Shown here: positions 8,679 to 52,501 of the stretch, one piece after another | Layout of the letters: each line of letters opens with the position of its first letter | How positions within the stretch are numbered: the stretch's first letter is position 1 | Origin: Rugamonas violacea | GTDB lineage: Bacteria; Pseudomonadota; Gammaproteobacteria; Burkholderiales; Burkholderiaceae_D | Direction of reading: 5' to 3' | DNA length: 64,000 nucleotides | NCBI RefSeq assembly: GCF_016461825.1 | Contig: NZ_JAEMNU010000119.1 | Location: 89,292 to 153,291 of the forward strand | Notes under the pieces: model-generated | What the model was told of the DNA's origin: nothing | The model's database searches: none | Seen by the model: only the letters and a program-made list of their open reading frames with translations | Position numbers and translations under genes: made by a program

Positions 8679-8700
8679 ACCCCCACCCGGAACGACACCC

Positions 8701-10569: not shown

Positions 10570-10592
10570 GTGCCACCCGCCGAGCGCAAACG

Positions 10593-10621
10593 ACCAGGCC
10601 AACCGCGAGGGTCGGCGTGGT
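10593..10621 (-). terminator. Imperfect hairpin downstream of PEP-CTERM copy A
   Basis: A 12-bp stem with two mismatches (10593-10604 with 10610-10621) and a GCGAG loop lies between the convergent ends of the GT-C-like gene and PEP-CTERM copy A. It aligns base for base with the perfect hairpin in copy B. It probably terminates transcription from either side. Confidence 0.5.
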
Positions 10622-10669
10622 TGCTTTGGCGTTGCCGGCTTGGTGTTGCCGCCGCCGGCCAGGCGGAGA

Positions 10670-11386
10670 CTAGGCTGGTTTGCGGCGGCGCGCCAGCGCG
10701 CCCACCAGGCCCAGGCCGGCCAGCAGCATCGCGTAGGTGTCCGCTTCCGGCACTGCGGTGACGCTGCCTTGCAGGGCGAACGGCAGCTCCAAGCTGAGTT
10801 GGGAACCACTGTCGGTGAGCGTGCTGAATGGCTTGCCGTTGCCCGACTGGGCGGCGTTGCCTTGGCGGCCGTCCGCGGTCGGCGGCTGCCATGGGCCATA
10901 GCCGTCATCGCTCAGGCTCCAGCGCAACCAGTAGTGGCCGGCGTTGAGCGAGAAGTCGTTGACGTCGGCGTGGATGTCGAAGATGGCGCGTTGTTGGTTG
11001 TGCAGCGTGGTTTCGGTGACGCGGTAGCCGACCAGTCCGCCGTTGCTCACCGCCGTCACGCCGGAGGCCACCACGGTGCCGTTGTTGAGGTCGCCGGAAA
11101 CGATGCTCCAGGTGGCGGTCTTGACGGGGAAGGGGAGGGTGAAGGTGCTGGGTTTGTAGGCATAGAAGTCCAGACTCGACACATTCCACTTCACGCCGGC
11201 GGCGACGCTGAAGTCGTCGGCCACGGCCAGGCCGCCGTAGCCGTTGACGCCGAAGCCGAGGGTGGTCGCGGGCAGCGTCAGCACCGATCTGCCGTTGCCG
11301 TCGACGACGGGACCGTTGTTGTACAGTTCAGCCGCCTGGGGCAGGCCGCTTGCAAGGAGGGTGGCGAGAAGGACGAGTCGTTTCAT
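10670..11386 (-). CDS. PEP-CTERM protein, duplicated copy A
   Basis: A 238-residue exported protein. A signal peptide covers residues 1-19 (LLASGLPQAAE). The sorting signal is VPEADTYAM, a hydrophobic helix and ARRRKPA. The mature part looks like a beta-rich extracellular domain (LAVADDFSVAAGVKWNVSSLDFYAY, HYWLRWSLSDDGYGPWQPP), similar to choice-of-anchor type domains often found before PEP-CTERM tails. It is about three-quarters identical to the neighbour at 11660-12373. AGGAG stands seven bases before the ATG. The promoter read from the sequence is -35 TTGCCA and -10 TATATT with 17-bp spacing. Function beyond surface localisation is unknown. Confidence 0.88.
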   Translation of the reverse strand: MKRLVLLATLLASGLPQAAELYNNGPVVDGNGRSVLTLPATTLGFGVNGYGGLAVADDFSVAAGVKWNVSSLDFYAYKPSTFTLPFPVKTATWSIVSGDLNNGTVVASGVTAVSNGGLVGYRVTETTLHNQQRAIFDIHADVNDFSLNAGHYWLRWSLSDDGYGPWQPPTADGRQGNAAQSGNGKPFSTLTDSGSQLSLELPFALQGSVTAVPEADTYAMLLAGLGLVGALARRRKPA

Positions 11387-14044: not shown

Positions 14045-14067
14045 GCATCTGATATGCTGTGCGCACG

Positions 14068-14391
14068 ATGAAAAATAATGTGAGCGGATGTTCCGTGGAA
14101 GAAGCGATGCGCCTGCTGGGCGGCCGCTGGCGCCTGCTGCTGGTGTCCTACCTGGTCGACGGGCCGAAGCGCTTCAACGAGCTGCGCCGCGACGTGCCCG
14201 GCATCTCGCAGCGCATGCTGACGCTCGACCTGCGCGCCCTCGAAGATGCCGGCCTGGTCAAGCGCACCGTCTACCCGACCTCGCCGATCAAGGTGGAGTA
14301 TCAACTCACCGTGGACGGCGCCCGCCTGCGCCCCGTCGTCGAGGTGATGAAGGAGTTTGGCATGTGGCTGAAGCAGGGCGGCAAGGCCTGA
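14068..14391 (+). CDS. HxlR family transcriptional regulator
   Basis: A 107-residue winged-helix regulator with the HxlR signature: a Cys near the start (GCSVEEAMRLLGGRWRLLLV), RFNELRRDVPGISQRMLTLDLRALEDAGLV and the wing PIKVEYQLT. Many members sense thiol-reactive or quinone compounds through the N-terminal Cys. The ATG at 14068 gives a typical start; an upstream GTG (14059) is possible. It is divergent from a GST gene, which fits electrophile sensing. The kinase gene starts 12 bp downstream, so read-through into the LytS/LytTR genes is possible. Confidence 0.9.
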   Translation: MKNNVSGCSVEEAMRLLGGRWRLLLVSYLVDGPKRFNELRRDVPGISQRMLTLDLRALEDAGLVKRTVYPTSPIKVEYQLTVDGARLRPVVEVMKEFGMWLKQGGKA

Positions 14392-14403: not shown

Positions 14404-14430
14404 ATGCCAACCATGCCAACCATGCCAAGC
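14404..14430 (+). repeat. 9-bp repeat giving three successive in-frame ATG codons
   Basis: ATGCCAACC, ATGCCAACC and ATGCCAAGC follow each other at 14404, 14413 and 14422. They encode MPTMPTMPS at the proposed N-terminus of the degenerate sensor kinase, so the true start is ambiguous among three codons. None has a clear ribosome binding site. Confidence 0.8.
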
Positions 14431-15549
14431 CGGTGCGCCGCCCCGGTCATGCCACCCGGCAAAGCCAACCCGCCCGGGTGGCGGCCGCCGTTCCTCGCGG
14501 CGGCATTGCTGTGGAACATGCTGGCCTTGTTGGGCGCGCTGGCCAGCCATAGCGACGCGCCGCCCGCCGCCGCCCACGCGTCGCTGGCGATGACGCTACT
14601 GCGTTTTGTGTTGCTGCATTTGCCGCTGAGCGCGCTCAGCCTGGTCCTCGCGCTTGGTTTTGATCGCGCCGAACAAAGCCGCCCGCGCCTTGCCCGCTTG
14701 CTGCTCGCCTACCTCGCCACGCTGCTGGTTTTCGTGCCGCTGTTGTGCGCCTGGCAAAGCGCGATGGACAGCGTTTTCAACGGCAAACCGCTCGTCACGC
14801 CGATCGCCCTGATCGAGCGGCAGAGCGCGCTCAACTGGTGGTTCAACGCGCTGATGCTGAGCATCGCCTATGCCGCCCACCTGGCCTACAGCACCTGGCG
14901 TCACGCGCACGCGCAGACGCTGGCGTGGCAAGCTGCGCAGCAAGGCAATCTGGCACTCCGCCTGCGCCTGCTACAAGGCCAGCTGGAACCGTATTTCCTG
15001 TCGAGCGCGCTGGCCGGCATCGGCAAGCTGAACCGCACGGCGCAGCGCGAGCAGGCAACCCGGGCGCTGGCGCGCCTGAGCGACCTGCTGCGCTATGCGC
15101 TGCGCGCCAGCCAGTCGGACTGGCAGAGCGTCGCCGACGAAGTGCGGTTCATGCGCGATTATGTCGATATGCAAGGCATTTGCCACGGCGGGGATGGTCT
15201 GGTCGAATGGCGGATCGAGCCATGCGACTGGGCCGATTACCGCTGTCCGCCGCTGCTGCTGTTTCCGATGCTGGAGCAGGCGCTCGGCGCATGTCTGGCC
15301 GGCGGCACGCCGGCGTTTCCCATTGTCGTCGGCATCGTGCGGGAGCGCTGCGGCGGCCCGGGCCGGGTGCGGGTCGAGGTGGCCTATCCACACGGCGGCG
15401 GCGCCGGCGGGGGCGAGGGCGGGGCGCTGGCCGTCATGGCGGAGCGTTTGGCTATGCTGTACGGCGCCGCCGCCACGCTGAGCGCGACCGTCGACGGCGC
15501 CCTTGTCCGCCTGCGCCTGGCTTACCCGGTGTCACACCATGATGAATGA
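14404..15549 (+). CDS. Degenerate LytS-type sensor kinase (pseudokinase)
   Basis: A 381-residue paralogue of the next gene's product, with four membrane helices (about 28-160) and a His_kinase/HATPase-like cytoplasmic part. The family motif PHFLFN reads PYFLSS here, so the phosphorylated His is Tyr197. The N-box Asn region (LLENAVQHG in the neighbour) is LEQALGACLAG, and the G-box GHGLGLNM is GGALAVM. Thus both phosphoacceptor and ATP-binding residues are gone, while the frame is open and the length normal. It cannot be an ordinary kinase and may instead regulate the intact partner by heterodimerisation. Its stop overlaps the next start by 11 bp. Confidence 0.85.
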   Translation: MPTMPTMPSRCAAPVMPPGKANPPGWRPPFLAAALLWNMLALLGALASHSDAPPAAAHASLAMTLLRFVLLHLPLSALSLVLALGFDRAEQSRPRLARLLLAYLATLLVFVPLLCAWQSAMDSVFNGKPLVTPIALIERQSALNWWFNALMLSIAYAAHLAYSTWRHAHAQTLAWQAAQQGNLALRLRLLQGQLEPYFLSSALAGIGKLNRTAQREQATRALARLSDLLRYALRASQSDWQSVADEVRFMRDYVDMQGICHGGDGLVEWRIEPCDWADYRCPPLLLFPMLEQALGACLAGGTPAFPIVVGIVRERCGGPGRVRVEVAYPHGGGAGGGEGGALAVMAERLAMLYGAAATLSATVDGALVRLRLAYPVSHHDE

Positions 15550-16690
15550 AACCGCCTTGCCCGCCGCCCCGGTCGCCCGCGCGCGGACCTGGCCCGCGCC
15601 GTTGGCCGGCATGGCGCGGCGCCTGCGCCACTGGCGGCGATGTCTGCTGATCCTGCTCGGCTGGCAATTGCTGGCGCTGCTGGAGGCCTTCGCCACCTAC
15701 GTCGACGCCAGCCACGGCGGGCATCCGGCATCGCTGCGCAGCTTGTTGTTGACCTTGCTGCCGCAATACCTGCCGCTGGTGTTGGCCAGCTGGATCTTGG
15801 CGCTGCTGTTCACCCGTTGGCAAGAGACTATATTGCGGCCGTCGCGGCTGTTGCTGGCGCTGTTGCTGTCGATGGCGCTGTTCCTGCCCTTCCTGACCGG
15901 CGTCGACGTCCTGCTGTTGCTGTTGCGCGAAGGCCGTCCGGCGGGCGATTTTGCCGCCATGCTGGCCAGGGGCGGACGCATGACGTGGTGGTACAACATC
16001 TTCGTGGTGGGCTTGGCATTCCTGGCGCAGGCCATGTACACGTCCTGGTGGCGGGGGCAGCGTCAGCAACTGTCGGCGCAGCGCGCGCTGACGGAAAACT
16101 TGCAACTGCGCCTGAGCCTGTTGCAAGGCCAGCTCAAACCGCATTTCCTGTTCAACGCCCTCAACAGCATCAGCGCCCTGGTGCGCACCGCCGACGCCGG
16201 GCTGGTCGAGCACGCGCTGGGGAAGCTGGGTGAACTGCTGCACTACGCCTTGGCGGTGGGGAAGGGCAAACAACCCAGCGTTGCCGACGAGCTCGATTTC
16301 CTCCGCGTCTACCTCGAACTGCAAAGCTTGCGCTACGGCGAGCGCATGACCCTGCTCTGGTCGATCGAAGAGCGCGACTGGGCGCGCCACGCCTGTCCTC
16401 CCCTGCTGTTCCAGCCGCTGCTGGAAAATGCCGTGCAACACGGCGTCGAACCGCACCAGCACAACTGCCGCATCGACATCGCGCTAGAATACGTCGCCGG
16501 CATGGTCAGCCTGCGCATCGCCAATCCGCTACTGGCGCCGCCGCGCGCCGGACACGGCCTCGGCCTGAACATGACCCGCGAGCGTCTGGCCATTCTGTAC
16601 GGGCCGCGCGCCGACCTGAGCATAGAGGCCAATGAACACCATTACACCGTCCACCTGCGCTTTCCCGCCGACGCCCCCGGCCCGGCCTAA
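15539..16690 (+). CDS. LytS/AlgZ-type sensor histidine kinase
   Basis: A 383-residue inner-membrane kinase. Four membrane helices cover about residues 35-165. The dimerisation/phosphoacceptor segment has LQGQLKPHFLFNALNSI (His202). The ATPase domain has an intact N-box (LLENAVQHGVEPH) and G-box (GHGLGLNMTRERLAILYG). It phosphorylates the LytTR response regulator whose gene overlaps its 3' end by 59 bp. The ATG at 15539 overlaps the upstream pseudokinase gene and is directly followed by a second ATG (15542). The signal sensed is unknown. Confidence 0.93.
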   Translation: MMNETALPAAPVARARTWPAPLAGMARRLRHWRRCLLILLGWQLLALLEAFATYVDASHGGHPASLRSLLLTLLPQYLPLVLASWILALLFTRWQETILRPSRLLLALLLSMALFLPFLTGVDVLLLLLREGRPAGDFAAMLARGGRMTWWYNIFVVGLAFLAQAMYTSWWRGQRQQLSAQRALTENLQLRLSLLQGQLKPHFLFNALNSISALVRTADAGLVEHALGKLGELLHYALAVGKGKQPSVADELDFLRVYLELQSLRYGERMTLLWSIEERDWARHACPPLLFQPLLENAVQHGVEPHQHNCRIDIALEYVAGMVSLRIANPLLAPPRAGHGLGLNMTRERLAILYGPRADLSIEANEHHYTVHLRFPADAPGPA

Positions 16691-17459
16691 GACCGTACTG
16701 ATCGTCGACGACGAATTGCCGGCGCTCGCCAATTTGGAATGGAGTCTGGCCAGGCGGCCGCAGTGGCGCCTGCTCGCGCCTTGCCGCTCGAGCGAACAGG
16801 CGAGGGAACAATTGCGGCGCGCGCCGGCCGACCTGATCCTGCTCGACATTCAGATGCCGGGCCAGTCCGGCCTGGAGTTCGCGCGTGAGCTGTGCCAGGG
16901 GCCGGCGGCGCCGTTGATCGTCTTCGTCACCGCCTACGACGAGCACGCGCTCAGCGCTTTCGATGTCTTCGCGCTCGACTACGTCCTCAAGCCTTACGAC
17001 GACGAGCGCTTCGACCTGATGCTCAAGCGCGCCGCGCAGACGCTGGAACTGAATCAACAGGCGGCAATGAACGGCGCCCTGCTCGACTACCTGCGCGACC
17101 GGGCGGCCGAGGTGGCCGGCCACGGCGCGCCGCTGCTGCAACAACTGGTGGTGCGCACGGCCGGCGGACTGGAGCGCGTCGCGGTCGACGACATCGTCTG
17201 GATCGGCACGGCCGGCAACTACGTCGAGCTGCATCTCGCGGCGCGCCGGGTGCTGCACCGCACCACCATCACGGCGATCGCCGCGCGCTTGTCCGCGCAG
17301 GATTTCGTCCGGGTCCACCGCACCGCCCTGGTGCGCCGGAGCGCCATCGCCGGCTTGCGCAGCGAGAGCGACGGCAGTTACACCTTGCGCCTGGCGCAGG
17401 GCGACAGCGTGCGCGTCAGCACCAGCTACCTCAAACAGGTGCAGGCCATGTTTGCCTGA
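16632..17459 (+). CDS. LytTR response regulator
   Basis: A 275-residue regulator. The receiver domain (about 20-140) has acidic residues D26/D27, phosphorylation site D72 (LILLDIQMPG), switch Thr in FVTAYDEHAL and Lys in VLKPYDDERF. A LytTR DNA-binding domain occupies about 160-270 (IVWIGTAGNYVELHL, DFVRVHRTALVRR). It is the output partner of the kinase whose gene it overlaps. LytTR proteins bind paired direct repeats spaced about one helical turn. The start at 16632 lies inside the kinase gene, implying coupled translation. Confidence 0.93.
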   Translation: MNTITPSTCAFPPTPPARPKTVLIVDDELPALANLEWSLARRPQWRLLAPCRSSEQAREQLRRAPADLILLDIQMPGQSGLEFARELCQGPAAPLIVFVTAYDEHALSAFDVFALDYVLKPYDDERFDLMLKRAAQTLELNQQAAMNGALLDYLRDRAAEVAGHGAPLLQQLVVRTAGGLERVAVDDIVWIGTAGNYVELHLAARRVLHRTTITAIAARLSAQDFVRVHRTALVRRSAIAGLRSESDGSYTLRLAQGDSVRVSTSYLKQVQAMFA

Positions 17460-17631
17460 GAGAGCGGCGCCGGCCGGCGCAAGCTCGTCCCCGCCGGCCC
17501 GCGTTTCGTCCCTGGCGGCTGAACTCGTCCCATAACTTGCCCAATCGATCACATTGTCGTAGCCGGCCGTGTCGACCCTATGGCAATCTGGGCCGAGTTT
17601 CATTCACGAGTTCACCAAAAGGGATATACAA

Positions 17632-18612
17632 ATGAACATGATCGCTACGAGTCGGCCAGGCAGTTGCCGTTGGCCCCCGCATGCTTGGCTGGCGCGCCTG
17701 GCCAGCCTGGTTTTCGTTTTCGCCTTGATGGGGGCGACAGCGCATGCGGGGACGCTGGATGCCGAACAATCGGATGACATCGCCGTCAAGACCGTCCGCG
17801 TCCACGGCCTCGATTTCCCCGTGCTCGACGTCGGCGAAGGGCCGGTGGTACTGCTGCTGCATGGCTTCCCCGACTCGCATGAGGTGTGGCGCCGGCAGGT
17901 AGGTCCGCTGGTGCGGGCCGGCTACCGCGTCGTCGCGCCGGACTTGCGCGGCTTTGGCGATGCGCCGATGCTCCCCGCCGTGGCCGATTACAGCCTGTTC
18001 AAGGTGCTGGGCGATGTGGTCGGCCTGCTCGACGTGCTCGACATCAAACAGGCGCGCGTGGTCGGCCACGATTGGGGCGCCGTCGTCAGCTGGTATTTGG
18101 CGGCGTACTACCCGGCCCGGGTCGAGCGCTTGATGGTGCTGTCGGTGGGCGCGCCGTGGAACCCGGAATTCAACAGCATCGAGCAGCGCGAAAAATCCTG
18201 GTACTCGCTGTTCTTCCAATTCGAGGGCGTGGCGGAGGCGCAGTTGCGGAAAAACGATTGGGCCTTGTTGCGCGGCCTGAGCCGCAACGAGGGCGACATC
18301 GAGGCGGCGATCGAGCACTTTGCGCGTCCGGGCACCCTGACGGCGGCGCTCAACTGGTATCGCGCCAATTCGCGGCCGGTGATGCCGGCGCCGGACGGCA
18401 CGCCGGCGCCGCCCGCGCTCAAAGTCAACTGCAAGGTGCTGGGCGTGTGGAGCGAGCGCGACCATTTCTTGACCGAGGCGCAAATGCAAGCCTCGGCCGG
18501 CGATGTGAGCGGGAAATGGCGCTACGAGCGGGTGGAGGAGGCGGGCCACTGGATGATGCTGGAGCGGCCGCGCCAAGTCACCGAACTCATGCTCGATTTC
18601 CTGCGGCATTGA
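17632..18612 (+). CDS. Exported alpha/beta hydrolase, epoxide hydrolase-like
   Basis: A 326-residue protein with a long N-region and signal peptide (about 1-39, ending AHAG). The alpha/beta hydrolase fold shows oxyanion HGFPDSHEVW, nucleophile elbow GHDWGAVVSW (Asp147 in place of Ser), acid WSERDHF and catalytic His EEAGHWMM. An Asp nucleophile defines epoxide hydrolases and haloalkane dehalogenases. The tyrosine-bearing lid segments (KSWYSLFFQF, LNWYRAN) fit epoxide hydrolases. Most epoxide hydrolases are cytoplasmic; the exported Pseudomonas Cif proteins are an exception and a possible analogy. The ATG at 17632 has GGGA nine bases upstream. An upstream GTG is not supported. Convergent with the MscS-related gene. 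Confidence 0.85.
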   Translation: MNMIATSRPGSCRWPPHAWLARLASLVFVFALMGATAHAGTLDAEQSDDIAVKTVRVHGLDFPVLDVGEGPVVLLLHGFPDSHEVWRRQVGPLVRAGYRVVAPDLRGFGDAPMLPAVADYSLFKVLGDVVGLLDVLDIKQARVVGHDWGAVVSWYLAAYYPARVERLMVLSVGAPWNPEFNSIEQREKSWYSLFFQFEGVAEAQLRKNDWALLRGLSRNEGDIEAAIEHFARPGTLTAALNWYRANSRPVMPAPDGTPAPPALKVNCKVLGVWSERDHFLTEAQMQASAGDVSGKWRYERVEEAGHWMMLERPRQVTELMLDFLRH

Positions 18613-18626
18613 GCGCGGCGGCGGCT

Positions 18627-19442
18627 TCAGGCCCGTCCGGCGTACTCGCTGCGGCGGTCGCCCAGCGAGCGGCGCCGCTCGTTGCCGGTGAACTCGCTTG
18701 GGTAGGACTGGTCTTGATTGGCGGCCTCGCCGGCGCCTTGCAGCAGGTGGCCGGCTTGCCCTTGCTGGCGCGCTTGCCAACGGCGCAGGAGGGCGCCGGC
18801 CACGTCACGCCCGCCGAGACCGAATGACAAGCCCAAGGCCAGCGCAAACGTGCCGACCACGCCGATGAAGAAGATGTTCACCAGTGTCGCGGCGACGCCG
18901 ATCTGGTTGATGGCGACGACAATCGCAAACGCCCACACGGCATTGCGCGCCACCGCCGCGAGCAGCGGCGGATTCTCCAGTTCTCCTTTGACGGCGGCGT
19001 TCAGCACCACCTCGCTGAGGGCATTGGCCGCGATGCCGCCGATGATCAAGGCGACCAGCGCGACGACCAAATTGGGCAGCCACATCAGCAGTTGGCGCAG
19101 CACATCGGATACGGCGGGCAAGCCAAGCGCATCGAAGGCCACCATGAGGGTAATCAGGCGGATAAACCATTTGGCGATGCCCGCCACGATCGCCGAGGCG
19201 CTTTGCTTGCCGCCGCCGCGTTGCAGCAGGCCGGACAGGCCGGCGCGCTCGGAAAAACCGTCGAAGTGGGCCGTCCGCAGCAGCGCTGCCAGCGCCCTGG
19301 CGACGACGGCGGCGATGATCCAGCCGACGATCAGGATGACGGCGAATCCCATGATCCGGGGAATGGACGAAAAGAGCAAGGCGGATGCGGTGGCTAGCGA
19401 AGCCAGGATGGCATCGCTCCAGTTGGTCAATTGTGCTTGCAT
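18627..19442 (-). CDS. MscS-related TM-helix membrane protein
   Basis: A 271-residue inner-membrane protein with four to five hydrophobic helices. It carries repeated conserved TM-helix segments like those of small mechanosensitive-channel relatives (FAVILIVGWIIAAVVARALAA and SFGLGGRDVAGALLRRW). It lacks the complete beta and alpha/beta cytoplasmic domain of full MscS. The tail after residue 225 is hydrophilic and Gln/Arg-rich. It may be an osmotic-stress channel or scaffold, but channel activity cannot be claimed. The ATG has AAGGGG upstream. It stands alone, convergent with the epoxide hydrolase-like gene. Confidence 0.82.
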   Translation of the reverse strand: MQAQLTNWSDAILASLATASALLFSSIPRIMGFAVILIVGWIIAAVVARALAALLRTAHFDGFSERAGLSGLLQRGGGKQSASAIVAGIAKWFIRLITLMVAFDALGLPAVSDVLRQLLMWLPNLVVALVALIIGGIAANALSEVVLNAAVKGELENPPLLAAVARNAVWAFAIVVAINQIGVAATLVNIFFIGVVGTFALALGLSFGLGGRDVAGALLRRWQARQQGQAGHLLQGAGEAANQDQSYPSEFTGNERRRSLGDRRSEYAGRA

Positions 19443-19799
19443 GGAAGCCCCTTGGGTTGAGCGCGACGTGGTGGCGGGCCGCCGGCCGAGCGGTGTCGGA
19501 CGGTGGCGGTGCGATCAAGGTTCGACCGGCGCGCGGCGCTTGAGTTCCCCGCCGCGGGCGTTTGTTTTTGCCGCGCGCCCGGGTGCCCGCCGGCGTCCAC
19601 GGCGTGGCGGGCTGCGATGGCGGGCGAAGCCAGCGCTTGGCAACGGCCACCCATGTGGTGGGACCTTCGGCCAGGCCGCCGGCACGGCGCATCGCCGAAA
19701 CGACAACGCCCACTGGCGGGAGTGGGCGTCGCGCCACCGATGTTCCGGGTGGCCGGTGGCGCAATCGCGCCACCGGCACGGCAGTTTTCAAGCCGGGTG
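19443..19799. other. Intergenic region containing a decayed tRNA-Phe-like locus
   Basis: A 357-bp stretch between the MscS-related gene and the helicase gene. Its right third (19697-19795) resembles the tRNA-Phe locus at 52375-52501 and is described separately. The remainder is GC-rich with no gene I can support. Confidence 0.55.
19697..19795 (-). pseudogene. Decayed tRNA-Phe 3' part plus its terminator hairpin
   Basis: This stretch aligns without gaps to the tRNA-Phe gene and downstream hairpin at 52375-52480. I count about three-quarters identical bases over 95 positions. Retained features are the GAAACGACAACGCCCACT flank, the CGCCCACT/AGTGGGCG hairpin (19707-19728), a GGTGGCC 3' acceptor-like end and TTTTCAA matching the anticodon loop. 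The 5' part of the tRNA is shortened or missing, so it cannot make a working tRNA. It lies in the same orientation as the intact gene at 24193-24268, with the helicase cassette between them. Confidence 0.6.
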
Positions 19800-22646
19800 T
19801 CAGGTCCGCCGGTCCGCCTGGTGCCGAATAATCGCTTCGGCTGGGGCGGGCAGCTTGGCGAACATGAGCAAGGCATCGATATGCCGGTCGTAGCCTGGGG
19901 CCGCCAACTCCTTAATCAAGGGCAGGTTGAGGGCCGAAAACACCGGCACCCACTCGTCGCCCTGGGCGCCGCGCCGGCGTATCGCCAGATCAGGGTTGAA
20001 TTGGTAGCACCCCGTCGCCAGGCGTTTGAACAGGCGGCGGTTGTATGCGTAGTCGCGATCGATCTCGTTGCGTGCCAATACACTGGAAATGAAGGCGCGC
20101 TTGCGACGTTCCGGTGGCAGCAGGCCGGCCGGCAGCGTTGCGTAAGCCCTCAGCACCATGGCGGCGTCGAAGCTGCCGCGGTCGCTGGCGTCGGCATTGC
20201 CGAAACAGGACTTGAACAAGGCCCACATGGTTTGCATCAGCAGATATTCGGACTGATGCGCGTCGATGCGTATCAGGCGCTCGCCCGCCATCACGTCGAT
20301 GCAGGCCGGCGCCACCAACCGGTAGACGGCGCCGAACGATGCCTTGGCATAGGCGCCATCGCGGAACGCCGTCGCCATTGCCCAGTGGAGGGCGTTGCGG
20401 CCAATATGGTCGACCGCGCCGGTGTCGGCTCCGCGGTCGAGTAAAGCCTCGATCAGCGCGATGTTGCCGGCCGCCGCCGCCGCCATCAACGGCGTTTGAT
20501 TCATCGACGTGCGATGTTCGACGCCATGCTTGTCACACAAGCGGAGAATGTCTTTGATATTGCGCGCAAAATACGCCAGGTAGGGGCGCCGGCCAAGCGT
20601 TACGCCGAGCTGGCGAAAATTGCGCGCCTGCTCGACGCCGGCGGCGTGCACCAGGCAATCGGCCAGCACCGGTTCGTCGAAACAACTGGCGTATTCGTAT
20701 AGCTGGTTCCTGTGCTTGCTGCCCGGCGCCTGTTCGCCGAAAACCTTCGCCAGCGTCTCGCGCAGCCTGGCCTCGTCGAATACCGGCCATGGCACGGGGG
20801 TGGTCTGCAGAATCATGCGCTCGATCGCCTCGGCCTGTTCCTGCTTGCCTTGCAAGGCAAGCTTGCGCGCTTCCTTTTGCCAGTCTTCGAGGCTCGATGC
20901 CTGCGCCGCGATTTTTTCGTCCGTCCGCGCCTGCCCGATGGCGAGCAAACCTAGCAGAGGGTGCGCGCTATCGGACTCGATCAGGTAGACGTTGCGGATC
21001 GCCCTGGTCAGGGCCACATACAAGGCGTTGACGTAGAACTTGTAGATTTCGAGCGACTTGTCGTTTTTGTCCTTGGCCCGGCTGTACGTCAGATCGTCGC
21101 CAACGAGGTCGGCTGCGCTGACGCCGTCGGCGATCTCGTTGAACTGGGCGCGGTTGTCGGAAACGAAGCGGTACAGCACGATGCTGTCGTATTCGAGTCC
21201 CTTGGCTTCGTGCACCGAAAAGATCAAGGGCGTGTCGAAGTGCTTGCGCGCTTCGGCCTTGTCTTCGTCGCGCAGCACCAGCACCGCAAAGCGGGTCGAA
21301 CGGCGGGTTTGCGCGTTCAGGTCGCGCCGCGCGTTGTCGCTGTCGGCCAACAGGTTGACGATGCCGGCTTCCTGATTGACGGCATCGACCAGGAAATTGC
21401 TCTCGCGGTCAATCGAACCGAAACGCCGGTGTTTGATTTTCAGCAGCGTGTTGGCGATGCGCGTGACCTGCCTGCCGTTCCTGAAATTGGCGCGCAACAC
21501 TTGCAACTGTTGCCGCTCCGCCAAGTCTGGGTCGCGCCAGAACAAGGACTTGATTTTGCTCCAAGAGAAAAAATTCGGGTGCACGATCTGGTTCGAATCA
21601 CCGCACAGCAAGAACTGGCCCGGCTTCTTCAACGATTGGAGTACCAGTGCCAGTTGGATCGGGGTGAGATCCTGCACTTCGTCAACCACGATGAAGTCGT
21701 AGCGCGGCTGGACCTGGCGCAGCCGTTCGTGCGATACCAGGTTCAGATCGAATAGTTCGGCCTCGTGCAGCCAGGCCCTGTATTTTTCGAACAGATCGTA
21801 TAGCGCGGGACGCTCGGCCGACGCGAAGATCGATTGCCGCGTGCCCAGCGCGGCATATTGCGCGCCGCTCAGGACGCCGGTGGCGTCGGCGGTGAGCACG
21901 CCGCGCACCTCCTCGAATGCCTGGTGCGCGTCGATGCCCTTGAATTGCTGGCGCATGCGCGCGAACCACGCGGAGAATTCGCGCCAGCCGGCCTCGCGGC
22001 CGGCGGGAATGCGTATCGATTCGACGTATTCGCGGTAAGAAAGGAAGTTCGCTTCCTGTCCCTCCCGTTCGTATCCCTGGGCATAGTACAGGTCGCGGGC
22101 CGACTGGGCCAGATAGGCCGAATGGGTGACATACAGGACCTCGCCCTGCGCATGTTTCATCTTTTCGAGCGTGAGCGCGGTCTTGCCGCTGCCCGCGCTG
22201 CCGACGATGATGAGCGGCGCCGCTTTATGGTAGATGCTGTGTTGCGCGTCGTCGAAGGAAATGACTTTGTCGAGCCAGTTGACCTGCCTGCGTTCCGGAT
22301 GGAGGTAGCGCAGCGTTTCGGCGGCGGCGATCGCTTCGGCCAGCTCGGCCGCCGGAATCTTGTCGTCGTCGACGCTGGCGCCCCGCAGGAAGCGGGATTT
22401 GTCATAGGCATGTTGCTCGATCACCTCCAGCATCAGCGCGTACACCTCGCCATTGAAGCGTATGGTGGTGAACAGCAGGCGGTCGGCATAGTCGAGCTTG
22501 GCGCGAAAGAACTTGCCGTGCGTTAGATTCGACAGCTTCTTGACATCGGCCGAGCGGAAGTCGTCGCGCTCGATGGCTTGTCGAACCTTGTCGTATCGCG
22601 CCCTATTGCTGGGTGCGGTGAATTCAGCATACTCGAGGATTTTCAT
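19800..22646 (-). CDS. UvrD/Rep-like SF1 helicase with RelE-like N-terminus and ankyrin repeats
   Basis: A 948-residue protein. Residues 1-90 look like a RelE/ParE-type toxin fold (VKKLSNLTHGKFFRAKL, VIEQHAYDKSRFL). Helicase motifs: Walker A GSAGSGKT (149-156), motif II DEVQD (322-326), motif III LLCGDSNQ, motif V VHEAKGLE (478-485) and motif VI YVALTRA (543-549). An ankyrin-type segment lies at about 713-770 (NQTPLMAAAAAGNIALIEALLDRGA), followed by about 180 unassigned residues. It should translocate on DNA or RNA using ATP. The ATG at 22646 is chosen because residues before it look non-coding. Base composition is less GC-rich than in neighbouring genes. This architecture is uncommon and recalls accessory or defence proteins, but no such function is shown. 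Confidence 0.85.
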   Translation of the reverse strand: MKILEYAEFTAPSNRARYDKVRQAIERDDFRSADVKKLSNLTHGKFFRAKLDYADRLLFTTIRFNGEVYALMLEVIEQHAYDKSRFLRGASVDDDKIPAAELAEAIAAAETLRYLHPERRQVNWLDKVISFDDAQHSIYHKAAPLIIVGSAGSGKTALTLEKMKHAQGEVLYVTHSAYLAQSARDLYYAQGYEREGQEANFLSYREYVESIRIPAGREAGWREFSAWFARMRQQFKGIDAHQAFEEVRGVLTADATGVLSGAQYAALGTRQSIFASAERPALYDLFEKYRAWLHEAELFDLNLVSHERLRQVQPRYDFIVVDEVQDLTPIQLALVLQSLKKPGQFLLCGDSNQIVHPNFFSWSKIKSLFWRDPDLAERQQLQVLRANFRNGRQVTRIANTLLKIKHRRFGSIDRESNFLVDAVNQEAGIVNLLADSDNARRDLNAQTRRSTRFAVLVLRDEDKAEARKHFDTPLIFSVHEAKGLEYDSIVLYRFVSDNRAQFNEIADGVSAADLVGDDLTYSRAKDKNDKSLEIYKFYVNALYVALTRAIRNVYLIESDSAHPLLGLLAIGQARTDEKIAAQASSLEDWQKEARKLALQGKQEQAEAIERMILQTTPVPWPVFDEARLRETLAKVFGEQAPGSKHRNQLYEYASCFDEPVLADCLVHAAGVEQARNFRQLGVTLGRRPYLAYFARNIKDILRLCDKHGVEHRTSMNQTPLMAAAAAGNIALIEALLDRGADTGAVDHIGRNALHWAMATAFRDGAYAKASFGAVYRLVAPACIDVMAGERLIRIDAHQSEYLLMQTMWALFKSCFGNADASDRGSFDAAMVLRAYATLPAGLLPPERRKRAFISSVLARNEIDRDYAYNRRLFKRLATGCYQFNPDLAIRRRGAQGDEWVPVFSALNLPLIKELAAPGYDRHIDALLMFAKLPAPAEAIIRHQADRRT

Positions 22647-22850
22647 GGGATGGTGGCGCCGAGCCGAGTTGTTGTTCAGAAATGTGCCGCCCGGTATTCT
22701 AACTGCTGGCCAGTGCGGCCGTTGCCCAGTGTGGCATGGGCGGCGCGACCGGTGTTTGACGGAGTGCGCCCGCCGTCGGCAGCGGCAAGCCATTGGGGCC
22801 GCCGGGCGGCAACTGTCGTGGAAAGCTGGCGAGCCAATCCGCCTGAACGC

Positions 22851-23390
22851 TTAGTTCACGGCGGCCATGCATTCTATTTCAGCCATGCCGCCCACTTCGA
22901 CGATGTCGGCCTCCATGACGCGATGCAAAAGGCTGTAGTCGACCCGCCATTGCTGGTCGCCGACGACCATGCTGACAGTCTTATCGTTGCGGCGGGTAAC
23001 CCTGCCGCTGCGCTCTAGCCCATTGCGATCGAGGTAGCCGACGACGTCGCCGACAGCGATCTCGTGGCGGTTCAAACCGCGTGGCGCCGGTTGGCGGATT
23101 TGCACATCCGCGCCGTTCAGATTGATCGATGGGTAATCAATCAGCCAGCGCTTGCCGTCGTCGCGATCGATGATCAACACGGTCTTGCGGCGCAACTCGC
23201 GAATTGTTCCGCATCGCAGGGTGTTGGCCCTGGCATCGAAATACTCGATCGACTGTCCCAGCGTCAGGCGCGCTTGTATCGCCCGCACGCGAGCCGGTTC
23301 GTCAAGGGCCACGCTGATGGCGGCGCGCAAGCGAAATAATTCGAATGCCGAGGCCTCGTTCAAAACGGTCAATACATCGGAAAAATTCAT
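22851..23390 (-). CDS. Hypothetical protein with two SH3/KOW-like repeats
   Basis: A 179-residue protein starting MNFSDVLTVLNEASAFELFRLRAAI, a helical N-terminus. Two similar beta-rich segments follow (about 53-100, GQSIEYFDARANTLRCGTI to WLIDYPSI; and about 120-165, VAVGDVVGYLDRNGLERSG-like to QWRVDYSLL). Each repeat has a hydrophobic strand, a basic TVLII- or TVSMVV-type strand and a W(L/R)-x-DY ending. This resembles small SH3-like barrels that bind RNA, DNA or ribosomes. I do not recognise a named family. It is co-directional with the helicase gene, 204 bp upstream of it, and shares the lower GC content. Confidence 0.6.
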   Translation of the reverse strand: MNFSDVLTVLNEASAFELFRLRAAISVALDEPARVRAIQARLTLGQSIEYFDARANTLRCGTIRELRRKTVLIIDRDDGKRWLIDYPSINLNGADVQIRQPAPRGLNRHEIAVGDVVGYLDRNGLERSGRVTRRNDKTVSMVVGDQQWRVDYSLLHRVMEADIVEVGGMAEIECMAAVN

Positions 23391-23591
23391 ACTCAATACG
23401 ATCCGGATCAAGGTTGTAAAAGATAGCGGTGCTGAGCCGGGGCTGACGCCGCCAGCGCTGTCGCCTTGCCTGCCCGTCGTCAATGCCACGACGCAGACCA
23501 GGCGGGCTGCCATCGTGGCGGATCTGGAAGAGTTATGGGCGGTCAAACAAGCAAGGCGTGGCCGCCGCCGCCGCACACTGCCGCTGTGCGC

Positions 23592-24044
23592 CTAGCCAGC
23601 GTCGGCGGCGTCCCCGTCAGGGCCGTATTCCAAGGGCTTCACGCCTTCTTGCAAAACAAGGTGGGGGTATTCCCGCCCGAGCAGACTTTTTGTTGCCTTG
23701 CCCTTCTTGCGAATTTCAAAACACCATGGCGAGCGGACATCGTAGTCGTAGTACAGCTTCTTGCTTCGCCCAAGAGGGAAGATGTCGCCAAGATGGATAC
23801 GCCATATGTCGTTGTCGCCCCCGGCCCATTCGCCATCGGCGGTGAACCAAGTCTTTCTGCCGCGAGGTCCATTCGCCAGGTAAAAATATGACAGGTGATC
23901 GCCATCGAAATTGACCGTGCCAATGATGAATGAGGCCAGATCGCCCAGTGTGCCATCGGCCGGCAGCTCAAGTACGAAGCGATACGCTTGCGAAAGATAT
24001 CGACCCCTGACGCAGGCGATTGAAAAGGTAAGAATGTCACGCAT
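23592..24044 (-). CDS. pRiA4b ORF-3-like protein
   Basis: A 150-residue protein with the layout of the plasmid pRiA4b ORF-3 family: LELPADGTLGDLASFIIGTVN, a short acidic/aromatic middle (WFTADGEWAGGDNDIWRIHLGDIFPLG) and KKLYYDYDVRSPWCFEIRKKGKA with a VLQEGVKPLEYG end. Family members travel on plasmids and transposons and have no fixed biochemical role. The ATG at 24044 is preferred over a start 48 bases upstream, though neither has a strong binding site. It lies between the tRNA-Phe terminator and the SH3-like gene, first of three leftward genes in the low-GC block. Confidence 0.65.
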   Translation of the reverse strand: MRDILTFSIACVRGRYLSQAYRFVLELPADGTLGDLASFIIGTVNFDGDHLSYFYLANGPRGRKTWFTADGEWAGGDNDIWRIHLGDIFPLGRSKKLYYDYDVRSPWCFEIRKKGKATKSLLGREYPHLVLQEGVKPLEYGPDGDAADAG

Positions 24045-24147
24045 GAGTGGTTGCTGCCGCCGCGTTGGAGAAATGCGCACACGCCGCTTCATCCGCCGCT
24101 ATCCTGTCAGAAATTTACCGGGGTGGAGGACTTGGTATTGCATACGG

Positions 24148-24173
24148 AAAAAAGCCCACTGGCATGAGTGGGC
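24148..24173 (-). terminator. Intrinsic terminator of tRNA-Phe (first copy)
   Basis: On the minus strand a GCCCACT/AGTGGGC stem (24154-24173) is followed by six T residues. It lies 20 bp past the tRNA 3' end. The flank beyond it (ACGGAAAA on the plus strand) differs from the GAAACGACAACG flank shared by the second tRNA locus and the decayed copy. Confidence 0.8.
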
Positions 24174-24192
24174 GTTGCGTGAAACATGTTCT

Positions 24193-24268
24193 TGGTGGCC
24201 CGGGGCGGAATCGAACCACCGACACAAGGATTTTCAATCCTCTGCTCTACCAACTGAGCTACCAGGCC
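24193..24268 (-). tRNA. tRNA-Phe (anticodon GAA), first copy
   Basis: A 76-nt cloverleaf with encoded CCA. The acceptor stem is GGCCTGG/CCGGGCC, the D-arm is GCTCAGTTGGTAGAGC, and the anticodon stem-loop is GAGGA-TTGAAAA-TCCTT with GAA at positions 34-36. The T-arm has GGTTCGATTCC, and the gene ends in discriminator A plus CCA. It is identical to the copy at 52426-52501. Its -10 box overlaps the stop codon of the neighbouring LytTR gene. Confidence 0.97.
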
Positions 24269-24284: not shown

Positions 24285-25239
24285 GCAGAACATCAGGCTG
24301 CTGCCAGCGCGTGCGCAGGGCGGCGCGGTGGTTGCGGCTGACGCGCAGCGCGGTCCCTTGCGCCAGATGCAGGACGGCGTCGCCGTTGGCCGCCGTCTCG
24401 ATCTGCTCGATGCGGTCGAGCGCGACCAGCATGCGTCGGTGGATGCGGACGAAGCGGCGCGGATCGAGCCGCGCCTCCAAATTGAGTAGCGTGTCGCGCA
24501 CCAGATGCTGTTGCGTACCCACGTGCAGCGCCACATAGTTGCCCTGGGTTTCGATCCAGTCGACTGTCGCCAGGTCGAGATGGCTGATGCGTCCGAGTGC
24601 CTTGATCTCAACCCGCGTCAAATGGGGCGAAGCGGGAGGTGACAACCCAGCTGTCGCCGGCGTTGGCGTGGCCGTCACCGCAGTCGCCGTGACCTTTGCC
24701 GCAGTCGCCGCCATCCCCGGTGCCGTAGTGGTGGCCGCCATAGCAACCGCCGCACCGTGCCGGCGGAACAACTGCGCCGCGTGGGCGAAAGCCAGATAAG
24801 CCGCCAGCACGCACAGGAGCAAGGAGAAGTCGGCCACCAGCTGGTCGACCAGTTGGGCCGGCGTCGGCAGCCAGCGGCCCTGGTAGAACCAAGCCGCCAG
24901 CAGGCCGGCGACGGCGATCAGCGCGAAGGCCAGCGCGGCGGCGGCGGCACCCTGCGCCAACAGATGGCGCCAACGTCCCGGCCCGGACAGCGGAAAACGG
25001 CGCGACACCACCAACAGCAGCGGCGTCGCCGCGCTGCCCAGCAGGGCGGCCACGGCGATGCGCAGCACCTCGTCGGCCCAGCCCAGCGCGTGCCCCGCCT
25101 GATGGGCGCGCAGCACGTTGCCCGGTTCGAGTACCAGCAGGAAGGCCAACCAATACGCATAGGCGTAGGCCTGCCGGCGCAGCCACGGCGGGCCTCGGCG
25201 CGGCGTGGCTTGAGACTGAAAAATGGGCAGGGTCAGCAT
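24280..25239 (-). CDS. Membrane-anchored LytTR transcriptional regulator
   Basis: A 319-residue protein. Four hydrophobic helices (about 25-175) are followed by an Ala/Thr-rich linker (TATAKVTATAVTATPTPATAG-like, about 185-210). A C-terminal LytTR domain (about 220-315) follows, with VDWIETQGNYVALHVG and DPRRFVRIHRRMLVALDRI. There is no receiver domain, so it senses through its membrane part rather than a phosphoryl relay. The ATG at 25239 is the likely start; a longer frame upstream crosses the 11-bp repeat array. It is divergent from the carboxylesterase gene. The array between them is a plausible LytTR binding region. Confidence 0.85.
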   Translation of the reverse strand: MLTLPIFQSQATPRRGPPWLRRQAYAYAYWLAFLLVLEPGNVLRAHQAGHALGWADEVLRIAVAALLGSAATPLLLVVSRRFPLSGPGRWRHLLAQGAAAAALAFALIAVAGLLAAWFYQGRWLPTPAQLVDQLVADFSLLLCVLAAYLAFAHAAQLFRRHGAAVAMAATTTAPGMAATAAKVTATAVTATPTPATAGLSPPASPHLTRVEIKALGRISHLDLATVDWIETQGNYVALHVGTQQHLVRDTLLNLEARLDPRRFVRIHRRMLVALDRIEQIETAANGDAVLHLAQGTALRVSRNHRAALRTRWQQPDVLL

Positions 25240-25287
25240 GCCGATGATTCTAGCAGGGCGCGGCCGGCCGTCCAGAAACGCTCCCGC

Positions 25288-25353
25288 AGAGGCCTCGCAA
25301 AGGCGCCGCAAAGGCCGCGTAAAGGCGTTCCAAAGGTTTCGCAACGGTGCCGG
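25288..25353. repeat. Six 11-bp direct repeats between divergent promoters
   Basis: Units begin at 25288, 25299, 25310, 25321, 25332 and 25343, each starting A(A/G)(A/C)GG and then G/C-rich. The 11-bp period places every unit on the same face of the DNA. The array sits between a LytTR gene and a carboxylesterase gene. LytTR proteins bind direct repeats about one turn apart, so it may be a regulatory array. Confidence 0.7.
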
Positions 25354-25489
25354 AAATTCCCTCGGAACGCCCGGCAGTGCCCCAAGTACGGGCTTTTGTG
25401 ACGAGCCGAGGCAAGCTTGGGACGAATCGGTCTGGCCCGGCGCGGGCCGTGGCGCGACACTGGCCGCCTGTTCAACGTGAGGAGACGTC

Positions 25490-27067
25490 ATGTTCAAGTT
25501 CCGTCGCGCCCTGGCCATGCTGGCCGTGCTGCTGGCCCCCTTTCACATCGTCGGCGCGGCGCCTGGCGCCGTCGTGCGCACCGACGCCGGCGCCGTGCGC
25601 GGCGAGCGTGCCGCCGGTCTGGACGTGTATCGCGGCCTACCCTTCGCCGCCGCGCCGCTGGGCGAGTTGCGCTGGCGCGAACCGGCCCCGGTGCCGCCCT
25701 GGCCGGACGTGCGTCCGGCCACCTCCTTCGCGCCGGCCTGCATGCAGCAGGGCGTGTCGATGCCGGGCGAGACGCCGCCCGAGGTCAGCGAGGATTGTCT
25801 CTACCTGAACATCTGGACGCCGGCCAAACGGGCGCGCGGGCCGCTGCCGGTGATTGTCTGGATCCACGGCGGCGGCTACAACAATGGCTCGGCCAGCATG
25901 GCGCTTTACCATGGCGACGCGTTGGCGCGCCGGGGTGTGGTGGTGGTGACGCTGGCCTACCGGCTCGGCGCGTTGGGCTTTCTCGCCCATCCGGCGCTGA
26001 CTCTGGAATCGCCCCATCAAACCTCGGGTAACTACGGCCTGCTCGACCAGATCGCCGCGCTGCGCTGGATACAAGGAAATATCGCGGCCTTCGGCGGCGA
26101 TCCGCGCCGGGTCACCATCGCCGGGCAGTCGGCCGGCGCGATGTCGGTCAGCGCGCTGCTGGCGGCGCCGTCGGCGCGCGGCCTGTTCCACGGCGCCATC
26201 GCGCAGAGCGGCGGCATCTTCGAGCCGCTGCAACTGGCGCCGGGCTACCAGCAGGCCAACGCCGAGCGCGCCGGCGCCGCCTTCGCCGAGACGCGCGGCG
26301 CGGCTACGCTGGCGCAGCTGCGCGCGCTGCCTGCGACACGGCTGCTGGGCGGCGACGCCGAAGCGCTGGCCCACCCGGTGGTCGACGCCCATGTGCTGCC
26401 ACTGACGCCCTACGAGGCCTACGTTCAAGGCCGCCAGCACGACGTGCCGCTGCTGCTCGGCTCCAACGCCGAGGAGGCGCGCTCCCTGGTCGACGTGGCC
26501 GCTGTGACGGCCGCCGACTTTGCCGCCGGTGTCGAGCGCAGCGTTGGCCGCTTGCCACCGGCGCTGCTGGCGGCCTACCCGGCGGCCGACGACGCCCAGG
26601 CGCGCGAGGCGCGCCTGGGCCTGGAGCGAGACCTGCGCTTCGGCTGGGACATGTGGGCCTGGGCCAGGCTGCAGGCGGCGGCCGGCGGCCGGCCGGCGTA
26701 CTACTACGCCTTCTCGCAGCGGCCGCCGTTCCCGCCCGCGTCGCCTTACGCCGGCTGGGGCGCCAGCCACTTCGCCGAGCTGTGGTACATGTTCGACCAT
26801 CTGCCACAGGCGCCGTGGTCTTGGCATGACGGCGACCGCGCGCTGGCCGACAGCATGGCGCGGTACTGGGTGAACTTCGCCCGCAGCGGCAATCCGAACG
26901 GCGCCGGCCTGCCGCGCTGGCCGGCCTTCGGCGGCGCCGACGCGGCCGACCAGGTGCTGCATCTGGGCGCGTTTATAGGTGCCGGCGGCGTCGCGCATCT
27001 GGAGCGCCTGCGCGTGTTCGACGCGGTCTACGACGGCGTGCGCGGCCGACCCTTCGGCATGCGCTAG
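25490..27067 (+). CDS. Exported type-B carboxylesterase
   Basis: A 525-residue protein with a signal peptide (1-23, HIVGAAPG) and the carboxylesterase B fold. Signatures are EDCLYLNIWTPAK, IHGGGYNNGSA (oxyanion hole), the nucleophile GQSAGAMS, acid residue GSNAEEARS and His in GASHFAELWYMF. It hydrolyses carboxylic esters outside the cytoplasm; the natural substrate is unknown. GAGGAG stands six bases before the ATG. It is divergent from the LytTR regulator gene and may be its target. A GC-rich hairpin without a T tract follows at about 27075-27098, and nothing else gene-like is seen up to 27339. Confidence 0.93.
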   Translation: MFKFRRALAMLAVLLAPFHIVGAAPGAVVRTDAGAVRGERAAGLDVYRGLPFAAAPLGELRWREPAPVPPWPDVRPATSFAPACMQQGVSMPGETPPEVSEDCLYLNIWTPAKRARGPLPVIVWIHGGGYNNGSASMALYHGDALARRGVVVVTLAYRLGALGFLAHPALTLESPHQTSGNYGLLDQIAALRWIQGNIAAFGGDPRRVTIAGQSAGAMSVSALLAAPSARGLFHGAIAQSGGIFEPLQLAPGYQQANAERAGAAFAETRGAATLAQLRALPATRLLGGDAEALAHPVVDAHVLPLTPYEAYVQGRQHDVPLLLGSNAEEARSLVDVAAVTAADFAAGVERSVGRLPPALLAAYPAADDAQAREARLGLERDLRFGWDMWAWARLQAAAGGRPAYYYAFSQRPPFPPASPYAGWGASHFAELWYMFDHLPQAPWSWHDGDRALADSMARYWVNFARSGNPNGAGLPRWPAFGGADAADQVLHLGAFIGAGGVAHLERLRVFDAVYDGVRGRPFGMR

Positions 27068-27339
27068 CGGACTTGGGCGCCCGCCGCCGGCGGCGCCCGC
27101 GCCGCTGTGGATGCGTTGCAACATGGCGCGCCCCGGGACGATTCGGCGCCGCCCGTGGCGCGCCGGGGCGGCAACGAAATGTCTTGATGCCCGCGCTTGC
27201 CCAGGTGTAATCTCAATTTTCAAGATATTCACCAATTCTCACCCCCATCCCCGTTGGCCTTGGACGCAGTGTCTTCCTTGAGAGCGCCGGACTCGTCCGG
27301 TCGCTCGGTGAACGCCAATCCGACTAGATGGGAATTGAG

Positions 27340-52425: not shown

Positions 52426-52501
52426 TGGTGGCCCGGGGCGGAATCGAACCACCGACACAAGGATTTTCAATCCTCTGCTCTACCAACTGAGCTACCAGGC
52501 C
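52426..52501 (-). tRNA. tRNA-Phe (anticodon GAA), second copy
   Basis: A 76-nt cloverleaf with encoded CCA, identical in sequence to the tRNA at 24193-24268. The flanks differ except for the hairpin and a short promoter segment, so the two copies are separate transcription units. Confidence 0.97.

Follow-up and report, generated by a model that had tools for sequence, protein, structure and literature searches.

Introduction

Additive flexible genomic islands (fGIs) at tRNA genes have been described in Alteromonas (fGI1; PMC4119200) and in the Methylophilaceae (fGI-2 at tRNA-Lys; PMC10872708). In the passages devoted to them, fGI-2 ranges in size from 330 bp to 42 kb and is marked by repeats of the final 20 bp of tRNA-Lys (PMC10872708), and tRNA 3'-end repeats also mark one strain-specific Alteromonas island (PMC4119200). 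A cis-mobilisable element (CIME) is presented, in the part of PMC5704250 that cites Pavlovic 2004 and Bellanger 2011, as an integrase-less element that keeps both attachment sites (attL and attR) and accretes. In Escherichia coli, the islands at pheV (GI-pheV) are ~10-110 kb long with an intP4 integrase beside the tRNA and 19-23 bp repeats at its very 3' end, according to the relevant section of PMC11537424, and partial tRNA genes resulting from integration are called widespread in the pertinent part of PMC9897764. Here we describe a block (positions 19697-24268) within a 64,000-nucleotide stretch of the Rugamonas violacea genome, referred to as the window, in which three genes lie between an intact tRNA-Phe gene and a decayed copy of the 3' half of such a gene. 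We consider it highly probable that this block is an old, integrase-less additive islet of CIME-like character at tRNA-Phe.

Like the fGIs, as far as the cited passages portray them, the locus has a conserved tRNA target beside which cassettes accumulate, with a content that differs by strain; unlike them, it uses tRNA-Phe, with the cut in the anticodon arm, its fragments comprise ~47 nt plus a terminator, and the window fragment is decayed. With CIMEs, in the same partial portrayal, it shares the absence of integration genes, the presence of attL and attR positions, and tandem accretion at one target in relatives, but no parental integrative and conjugative element is known here and the window attR is probably too decayed to recombine. 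GI-pheV likewise lies 3' of a tRNA-Phe gene and, in the section cited, usually has a partial tRNA repeat at its far end, whereas the window islet is smaller, has a repeat that begins in the anticodon arm and is without an integrase. Integrases reportedly use either the anticodon arm or the T arm of tRNA genes, a distinction said to go back to Williams in 2002. Integron gene cassettes are small units, each followed by a recombination site (attC), with IntI as the integrase. The units found in relatives of the window are also small, some of one or two genes and several of toxin-antitoxin or defence type, and are followed by a recombination site, but this site is a tRNA half and not attC (no search was aimed at attI or attC), the repeats seen are tRNA halves, and no IntI integrase was detected in the block by the models used. 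PMC4119200 also contains a description of integron cassettes. Since both additive tRNA islands and CIMEs are already in the literature, the window islet is a further case of a known process; a literature search found no paper on this particular locus, which is no proof of absence.

Results

A decayed tRNA-Phe half downstream of an intact tRNA-Phe gene

The window contains two intact minus-strand tRNA-Phe genes (copies C and B; Table 1), and the whole assembly three, the remaining one being located outside the window at C23:67089. The remnant, which covers the anticodon arm, T arm, acceptor end and terminator hairpin of a tRNA-Phe, is co-oriented with copy C and downstream of it; no fragment was found downstream of copy B. 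An ungapped alignment of 19705-19794 with 24151-24240 gave 67 of 90 identical positions (74%), in agreement with the preliminary description, which had reported a 3' half and hairpin at about three-quarters identity. Alignment with the second tRNA-Phe copy gave 87 of 120 positions with one gap, the GTTGTCGTTTC tail included, and the tRNA part without the terminator retained 38 of 51. This tRNA part scores 50, a value reached by none of 2000 dinucleotide shuffles (best 31) and none of 674 control windows (best 30). A whole-assembly search with the remnant (E <= 0.001) returned only itself and the second tRNA-Phe (E 8.2e-13), and it is therefore no common intergenic repeat, the alternative that had been named for it. 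The reverse search with the intact near copy listed 15 places, the remnant not among them; direct blastn of the near copy against the remnant gave a match at 3e-14.

Two strong hairpins are predicted for the remnant in its present form (-58.6 kcal/mol, z -4.8). In the first, the decayed T arm has become a perfect 11-bp stem (19752-19777), as if selection for a terminator or quasi-palindrome correction had shaped the old arm. The less decayed fragment of locus L212, described below, showed no excess folding (z -0.03). The helicase stop codon sits 8 nt ahead of the remnant's core, and the remnant may now terminate the helicase transcript. The flank of the remnant (GTTGTCGTTTC/GTTGTCGTTT) had been taken as the mark of the second tRNA-Phe locus, an interpretation that did not survive comparison: the GTTGTCGTTT tail is one terminator variant, present at 3 of 121 intact copies and in 6 of 42 fragment rows from the genus, rows that count the window remnant twice, as it is present in two loci, and that represent 41 distinct fragments.

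The same helicase beside tRNA-Phe in another genome

Presence of the block's genes in all relatives with normal composition, which the preliminary description had regarded as incompatible with insertion, was not observed, the helicase being found in 4 of 74 genomes of the genus (E <= 1e-40). In a wider survey, of which the best 80 loci were kept, the helicase occurred mostly in Pseudomonadota and Chlorobiaceae. One of these loci, in Massilia sp. MS-15 (L212), carries a single-gene insert consisting of tRNA-Phe (7784-7859), the helicase (8001-10844; 77% DNA identity) and a near-intact tRNA-Phe fragment (10878-10922) whose terminator ends in GTTGTCGTTTC. Judged by sequence comparison, this locus is the strongest single support for insertion, and it suggests that the helicase and its attachment site (att) arrived as one unit, the other two genes possibly having come separately. 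At L218 the helicase lies ~7 kb downstream of tRNA-Phe, beyond a fragment. No tRNA-Phe was found by blastn at the other 78 of the 80 loci, and tRNA-Phe is therefore one home of the helicase among several. A pRiA4b homologue (50%) follows the helicase at one of the 80 loci (L213).

Recurrent tRNA-Phe fragments across the genus

Surveys of tRNA-Phe and its fragments covered 60 of the 74 genus genomes, with stretches taken from 59 of them (G056 left out). All 60 have tRNA-Phe, usually as two copies on one strand. Fragments were sought (E<1e-4) in the window and 137 loci, 138 sequences in all; an intact tRNA-Phe is present in 118 of these, with 121 intact copies in total. The search yielded 41 distinct 3'-half fragments, distributed over 26 of the 60 genomes. 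Thirty-four begin at base 1 or 2 of ATTGAAAATCC; a few reach some nucleotides further 5' (L079, L086). For 31 fragments the stretch also contains an intact tRNA-Phe, and every one of them is co-oriented with such a gene and downstream of it, at 0.5 to 10.5 kb (median 2.4 kb); in L102, which has two tRNA-Phe genes, the fragment is upstream of the second and downstream of the other. The strand count is free of sampling bias, whereas the side count is biased, 1.42 Mb having been searched downstream and 0.33 Mb upstream. Of the remaining ten fragments, two are in L077, which shares a contig with the tRNA-Phe of L076, and the other eight are spread over six stretches that lack tRNA-Phe (L080, L085-L089). 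At least one downstream fragment follows 29 of the 121 tRNA-Phe copies, weak matches included, and two or more follow a single tRNA-Phe in G040, G005, G018 and G025; most copies have none inside the <=13 kb fetched. Other genera of the family, sampled with 60 genomes, have fragments with this starting point as well.

Four of the fragments in stretches without tRNA-Phe (L085 9548, L086 9173, L087 9866 and L088 9024) each follow the 3' end of a predicted protein gene and perhaps mark a secondary integration site. Immediately ahead of two fragments, just above L083 9874 and just below L078 8074, there is a sequence that resembles, by eye, an inverted T-arm piece of another tRNA.

A different insert at the orthologous site of a sister species

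Sister species G033, in which the best matches of the shared proteins are mostly 80-98% identical, agrees with the window's genome in the number (three), order and orientation of its tRNA-Phe copies. The middle one is flanked by conserved neighbours, a 110-aa gene (window 14059-14391) and a chemoreceptor gene (window 27328). Its orthologous site holds a different insert: between tRNA-Phe and the MscS side are a 114-aa protein of coiled-coil appearance, a periplasmic binding protein and a further open reading frame (ORF) that is SRPBCC-like by eye. The terminator of this tRNA differs from that of copy C, whose hairpin presumably arrived with the inserted DNA. G033 has a terminator remnant of its own (C37:118224; 0 of 300 shuffles as good), the tRNA part of which is gone (170 of 300 as good), and keeps pieces of the MscS-related gene and its upstream flank (window 18622-18714 and 19501-19564). 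The MscS-related gene was present in only 2 of the 60 sampled genomes, and a relative with tRNA-Phe directly beside it, which the preliminary description had named as support for insertion, was not found.

Copy C and its G033 counterpart (L090 12040-12115) are the sole copies placed at this third locus among the 121 tRNA-Phe genes, 31 of which are unclassified. Two other parts of the window had no match in the compared G033 region, namely 14404-18612 (LytS/LytR-type genes and a hydrolase) and 24333-27077 (a LytTR gene and an esterase, between tRNA-Phe and the chemoreceptor gene); the best relative of the LytTR gene is in G031.

Genes between tRNA-Phe and fragment in relatives

Thirty-five intervals bounded by tRNA-Phe copies and fragments were defined, including two added by hand (L080, L090) and two ending in a weak match (L128, L160), with sizes of 0.47 to 10.4 kb (median 1.9 kb). 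Pfam was scanned with 68 of their 87 listed ORFs, all those of >=300 aa included; as the ORFs were chosen longest-first, genes could be missed. A PF00589 integrase was found in one interval (L128, with a weak-match boundary). Units of a zeta-toxin kinase and a 61-aa partner occur at different tRNA-Phe loci of two species, G038 and G030; the two units, at L084 6486-7270 and L082 11697-12427, align over 1078 bp, from just ahead of the tRNA to beyond the fragment, at 79% identity. A broken zeta-toxin copy is present in G018 (L078). The part of the unit that G018 has in common with G030 is 88% identical, against 76% for the tRNA-adjacent gene, which fits movement of the unit and could also be explained by constraint. 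Further cargo includes an EVE protein, a type I restriction system with GmrSD, an RmrA-like protein, an RHS protein with DUF4329, a PAAR protein and a HigA-like protein (helix-turn-helix match and inspection by eye). A Lamassu-like LmuA/LmuB pair lies between two fragments in G003 (G003:C9, L080 9604-13417), on a contig where tRNA-Phe is listed nowhere. Many interval ORFs matched nothing. The same tRNA-Phe target thus carries cassettes that vary in number and kind among relatives.

Recombinase-bearing elements and a second conserved motif

A tyrosine recombinase family (query L076 14813-16189) was found at 10 places in 9 of the 74 genomes. The five best are linked to tRNA-Phe, four downstream of the gene (G040, G039, G054, G067) and one ~10 kb after a fragment (G005). 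The G054 element measures 13.9 kb from tRNA-Phe to a 49/49 identical fragment (L177 1092 to L318 584), with the integrase ending ~0.5 kb before the fragment and, as in phage satellites, a primase/helicase-like gene. In G067, tRNA-Phe and a 49/49 fragment enclose ~14.2 kb (L314 10880 to L313 11116) with a related integrase inside; in G039 the far fragment was not found up to the contig end. The matches in G039, G005 and G067 each show one internal stop, which may represent decay or the end of a frame. More distant relatives lie near tRNA-Lys (G065, G068) and in a tRNA-Asn region (G002). The G040 recombinase reached 60.6 bits against the NCBIfam integron integrase model, for which the cut-off is 265. 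The family had no match at E 1e-50 in the window's genome. We consider it the likely machinery behind the insertions. The integrase beside tRNA-Phe in G049 (L128) was not taken as responsible, as its family is broad (52 of 74 genomes at E <= 1e-50) and no other match lay near tRNA-Phe in the 138 stretches.

A motif, AGTCCTCGtgTCCGGTCtATTTCCGGT, spotted by eye and then counted on those very sequences, occurs at a nearly fixed distance of ~70 nt past the tRNA-Phe 3' end at 32 of 121 tRNA copies and 16 of 41 fragments (<=4 mismatches), compared with 2 of 116 and 0 of 41 at an offset of 1 kb and none at three other offsets. G067 has it on the tRNA's element side (1 mismatch) but not past the displaced end, both sides of G054 show a weak version (4 and 5 mismatches), and in G040 the two copies have 2 and 5 mismatches. 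It was absent at the expected place in G049, and none of the 41 fragments has it in the 300 nt upstream. The motif is a possible integrase arm site.

Composition and gene content of the block

The GC content of the block is 0.610, compared with 0.677 and 0.701 in its flanks. GC at third codon positions (GC3) rises from the tRNA towards the remnant, from 0.63 in the pRiA4b-like gene (z -3.0) through 0.73 in the SH3-like gene (z -1.8) to 0.80 in the helicase (z -1.0); the mean for the window is 0.88. The helicase is thus no lower than the LytTR gene (z -1.1), which lies outside the block, beyond the tRNA. Composition therefore favours a foreign origin of the tRNA-proximal genes more than of the helicase, and the earlier statement that the three genes are less GC-rich than both flanks holds for the block as a whole (61% versus 68% and 70%) but not evenly for its genes.

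The best PADLOC match of the helicase was to a DRT helicase model (6.9e-12), and many GajB models matched as well, all of these matches being partial; they weakly suggest a role in defence. The pRiA4b-like and SH3-like proteins had no PADLOC match, and the latter had none in Pfam or NCBIfam either, giving a weak match to a PHROG family of unknown function. As had been noted before, the block holds no integrase: its three ORFs gave no Pfam integrase match, and three integrases from near tRNA-Phe or a fragment in relatives had no tblastn match in the window. One family table of the analysis lists five of the six matches in the window's own genome, none of those on its contig. No transfer genes were found among the three ORFs. 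A hidden tRNA-Phe fragment was sought and not found between the pRiA4b-like and SH3-like genes or between the SH3-like gene and the helicase (183 of 500 shuffles as good for the tRNA part, 37 of 500 for the terminator).

Table 1 Features of the tRNA-Phe islet and its surroundings (window coordinates)
Feature	Position	Strand	Basis and remarks
tRNA-Phe (GAA), copy C, intact; third genomic copy, attL side	24193..24268	-	ARAGORN, Rfam
Terminator hairpin of copy C	24154..24173	-	Folding; differs from the terminator of the orthologous G033 copy
Degenerate copy of the second motif (AGTCC..N..CCGGT.ATTT)	24105..24132	-	6 mismatches of 18; weak
pRiA4b ORF-3-like protein, 166 aa, cargo	23592..24092	-	PF07929, E 5e-5, under the Pfam cut-off; lowest GC3 of the block
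SH3-like protein, 179 aa, cargo	22851..23390	-	Named in the preliminary description; a longer ORF reaches 23576
UvrD/Rep-type SF1 helicase with C-terminal ankyrin repeats, 948 aa, cargo	19800..22646	-	Pfam
Decayed attR: tRNA-Phe 3' half from the anticodon arm, terminator hairpin (19706-19729) and GTTGTCGTTTC tail	19697..19794	-	
Chromosomal flank beyond the islet	19501..19564	+	Conserved in G033 (84.6%); lies 5' of the MscS-related gene (18627-19442)
tRNA-Phe, copy B; comparison copy	52426..52501	-	ARAGORN (also Rfam); alignment

Discussion

The block has an intact tRNA at one end and a co-oriented partial 3' copy at the other, a different insert occupies the orthologous site in a close relative, and its boundary in the anticodon arm, at which fragments across the genus recur, is that of an attachment site. 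As it encodes no site-specific recombinase, it is filed as a derivative and not as a complete element; the lack of integrase and transfer genes among its three ORFs may make it CIME-like, but its attR, 74% identical, is of doubtful working order. The preliminary description had proposed that an element integrated into a tRNA 3' end and displaced the original one, and this gains support from the recurrent fragments, the integrase-bearing elements of two relatives, L212 and G033.

We infer a recombination step at the window locus; how many events took place, and whether the cargo brings a benefit, are likewise matters of inference. In the proposed mechanism, circular DNA would have been integrated into copy C by a tyrosine recombinase that works on the anticodon arm. 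The incoming DNA would have brought a fresh tRNA 3' half together with a terminator and would thereby have kept the tRNA functional. The old 3' half and terminator would have been displaced to the far end, where they would have decayed without selection on a tRNA and would now form the hairpins just past the helicase stop codon. The helicase and the adjacent attachment fragment probably represent one arrival, while the pRiA4b-like and SH3-like genes may have come with them or through a second, later insertion at this tRNA. The recombinase may have been lost or may have worked from elsewhere.

The single element assumed in the preliminary description is probable for the helicase with its fragment and weaker for the other two genes. 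Two or more successive insertions, a sub-case of the additive islet, would have placed the helicase cassette first and then the pRiA4b-like and SH3-like genes between it and the tRNA, their own fragment having been lost. The solitary helicase of L212, the GC3 gradient toward the tRNA and the serial fragments of G040, G005, G018 and G025 all point this way, but no fragment is detectable between the SH3-like gene and the helicase, and the pRiA4b homologue that follows the helicase in L213 suggests that the genes may belong together; such a history is a serious possibility, though we would stop short of calling it probable. Duplication without a mobile element, in which a tandem second tRNA-Phe lost its 5' half and unrelated genes piled up in between, would agree with three tRNA-Phe copies in the genome, with intact pairs ~4.4 and 11 kb apart in G016 and G052, and with the tRNA-like gene called by ARAGORN over one fragment (L218). 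It is hard to reconcile with 34 of 41 fragments beginning within one base of one point, with integrases inside two elements that share this boundary, and with the lack of a D arm, by eye, in the 60 nt before 22 fragments (the few that extend 5' do so by some nucleotides), and we judge it very unlikely. A chance or convergent likeness between the terminator hairpin and the tRNA flank might be suspected because GC-rich hairpins and terminators of this type are alike and the G033 remnant consists of the hairpin only; for the window remnant, both this and a common repeat were rejected on the shuffle test, with its control windows, and on the whole-assembly search, which leaves coincidence a negligible prospect.

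Several observations nonetheless weigh against an integrase-less islet formed by insertion. The GC3 of the helicase is near normal, and the other helicases of the genus are not at tRNA-Phe, those of G052 and G016 being on different contigs than tRNA-Phe and that of G072 on a 6.3-kb contig that has no tRNA-Phe. The search for a relative with an empty site found none: in G033 the MscS-related gene has decayed and the site is filled by other genes. One of the two integrase-bearing elements, that of G067, has an internal stop in its integrase match, and the count of fragments downstream of tRNA-Phe is favoured by the larger downstream search. The 74% identity of the remnant can neither date the event nor show which locus supplied the old end.

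A broader proposal would make tRNA-Phe an integron-like cassette platform in the family, carrying mostly sub-5-kb gene-plus-att units, nearly all without a recombinase, that are stacked by a recombinase acting in trans from satellite-like elements, with a second att element ~70 nt beyond fixing the geometry and the window helicase as one such unit; we offer this as speculation that is unlikely to hold in full. At the level of the additive islet, a faint 98-bp similarity becomes the scar of a gene acquisition, a reading borne out by comparison, and tRNA-Phe emerges as a recurrent landing site in the genus, with defence and toxin-antitoxin genes among its cargo. The small recombinase-less units found there raise the question of how units of one or two genes form and move.

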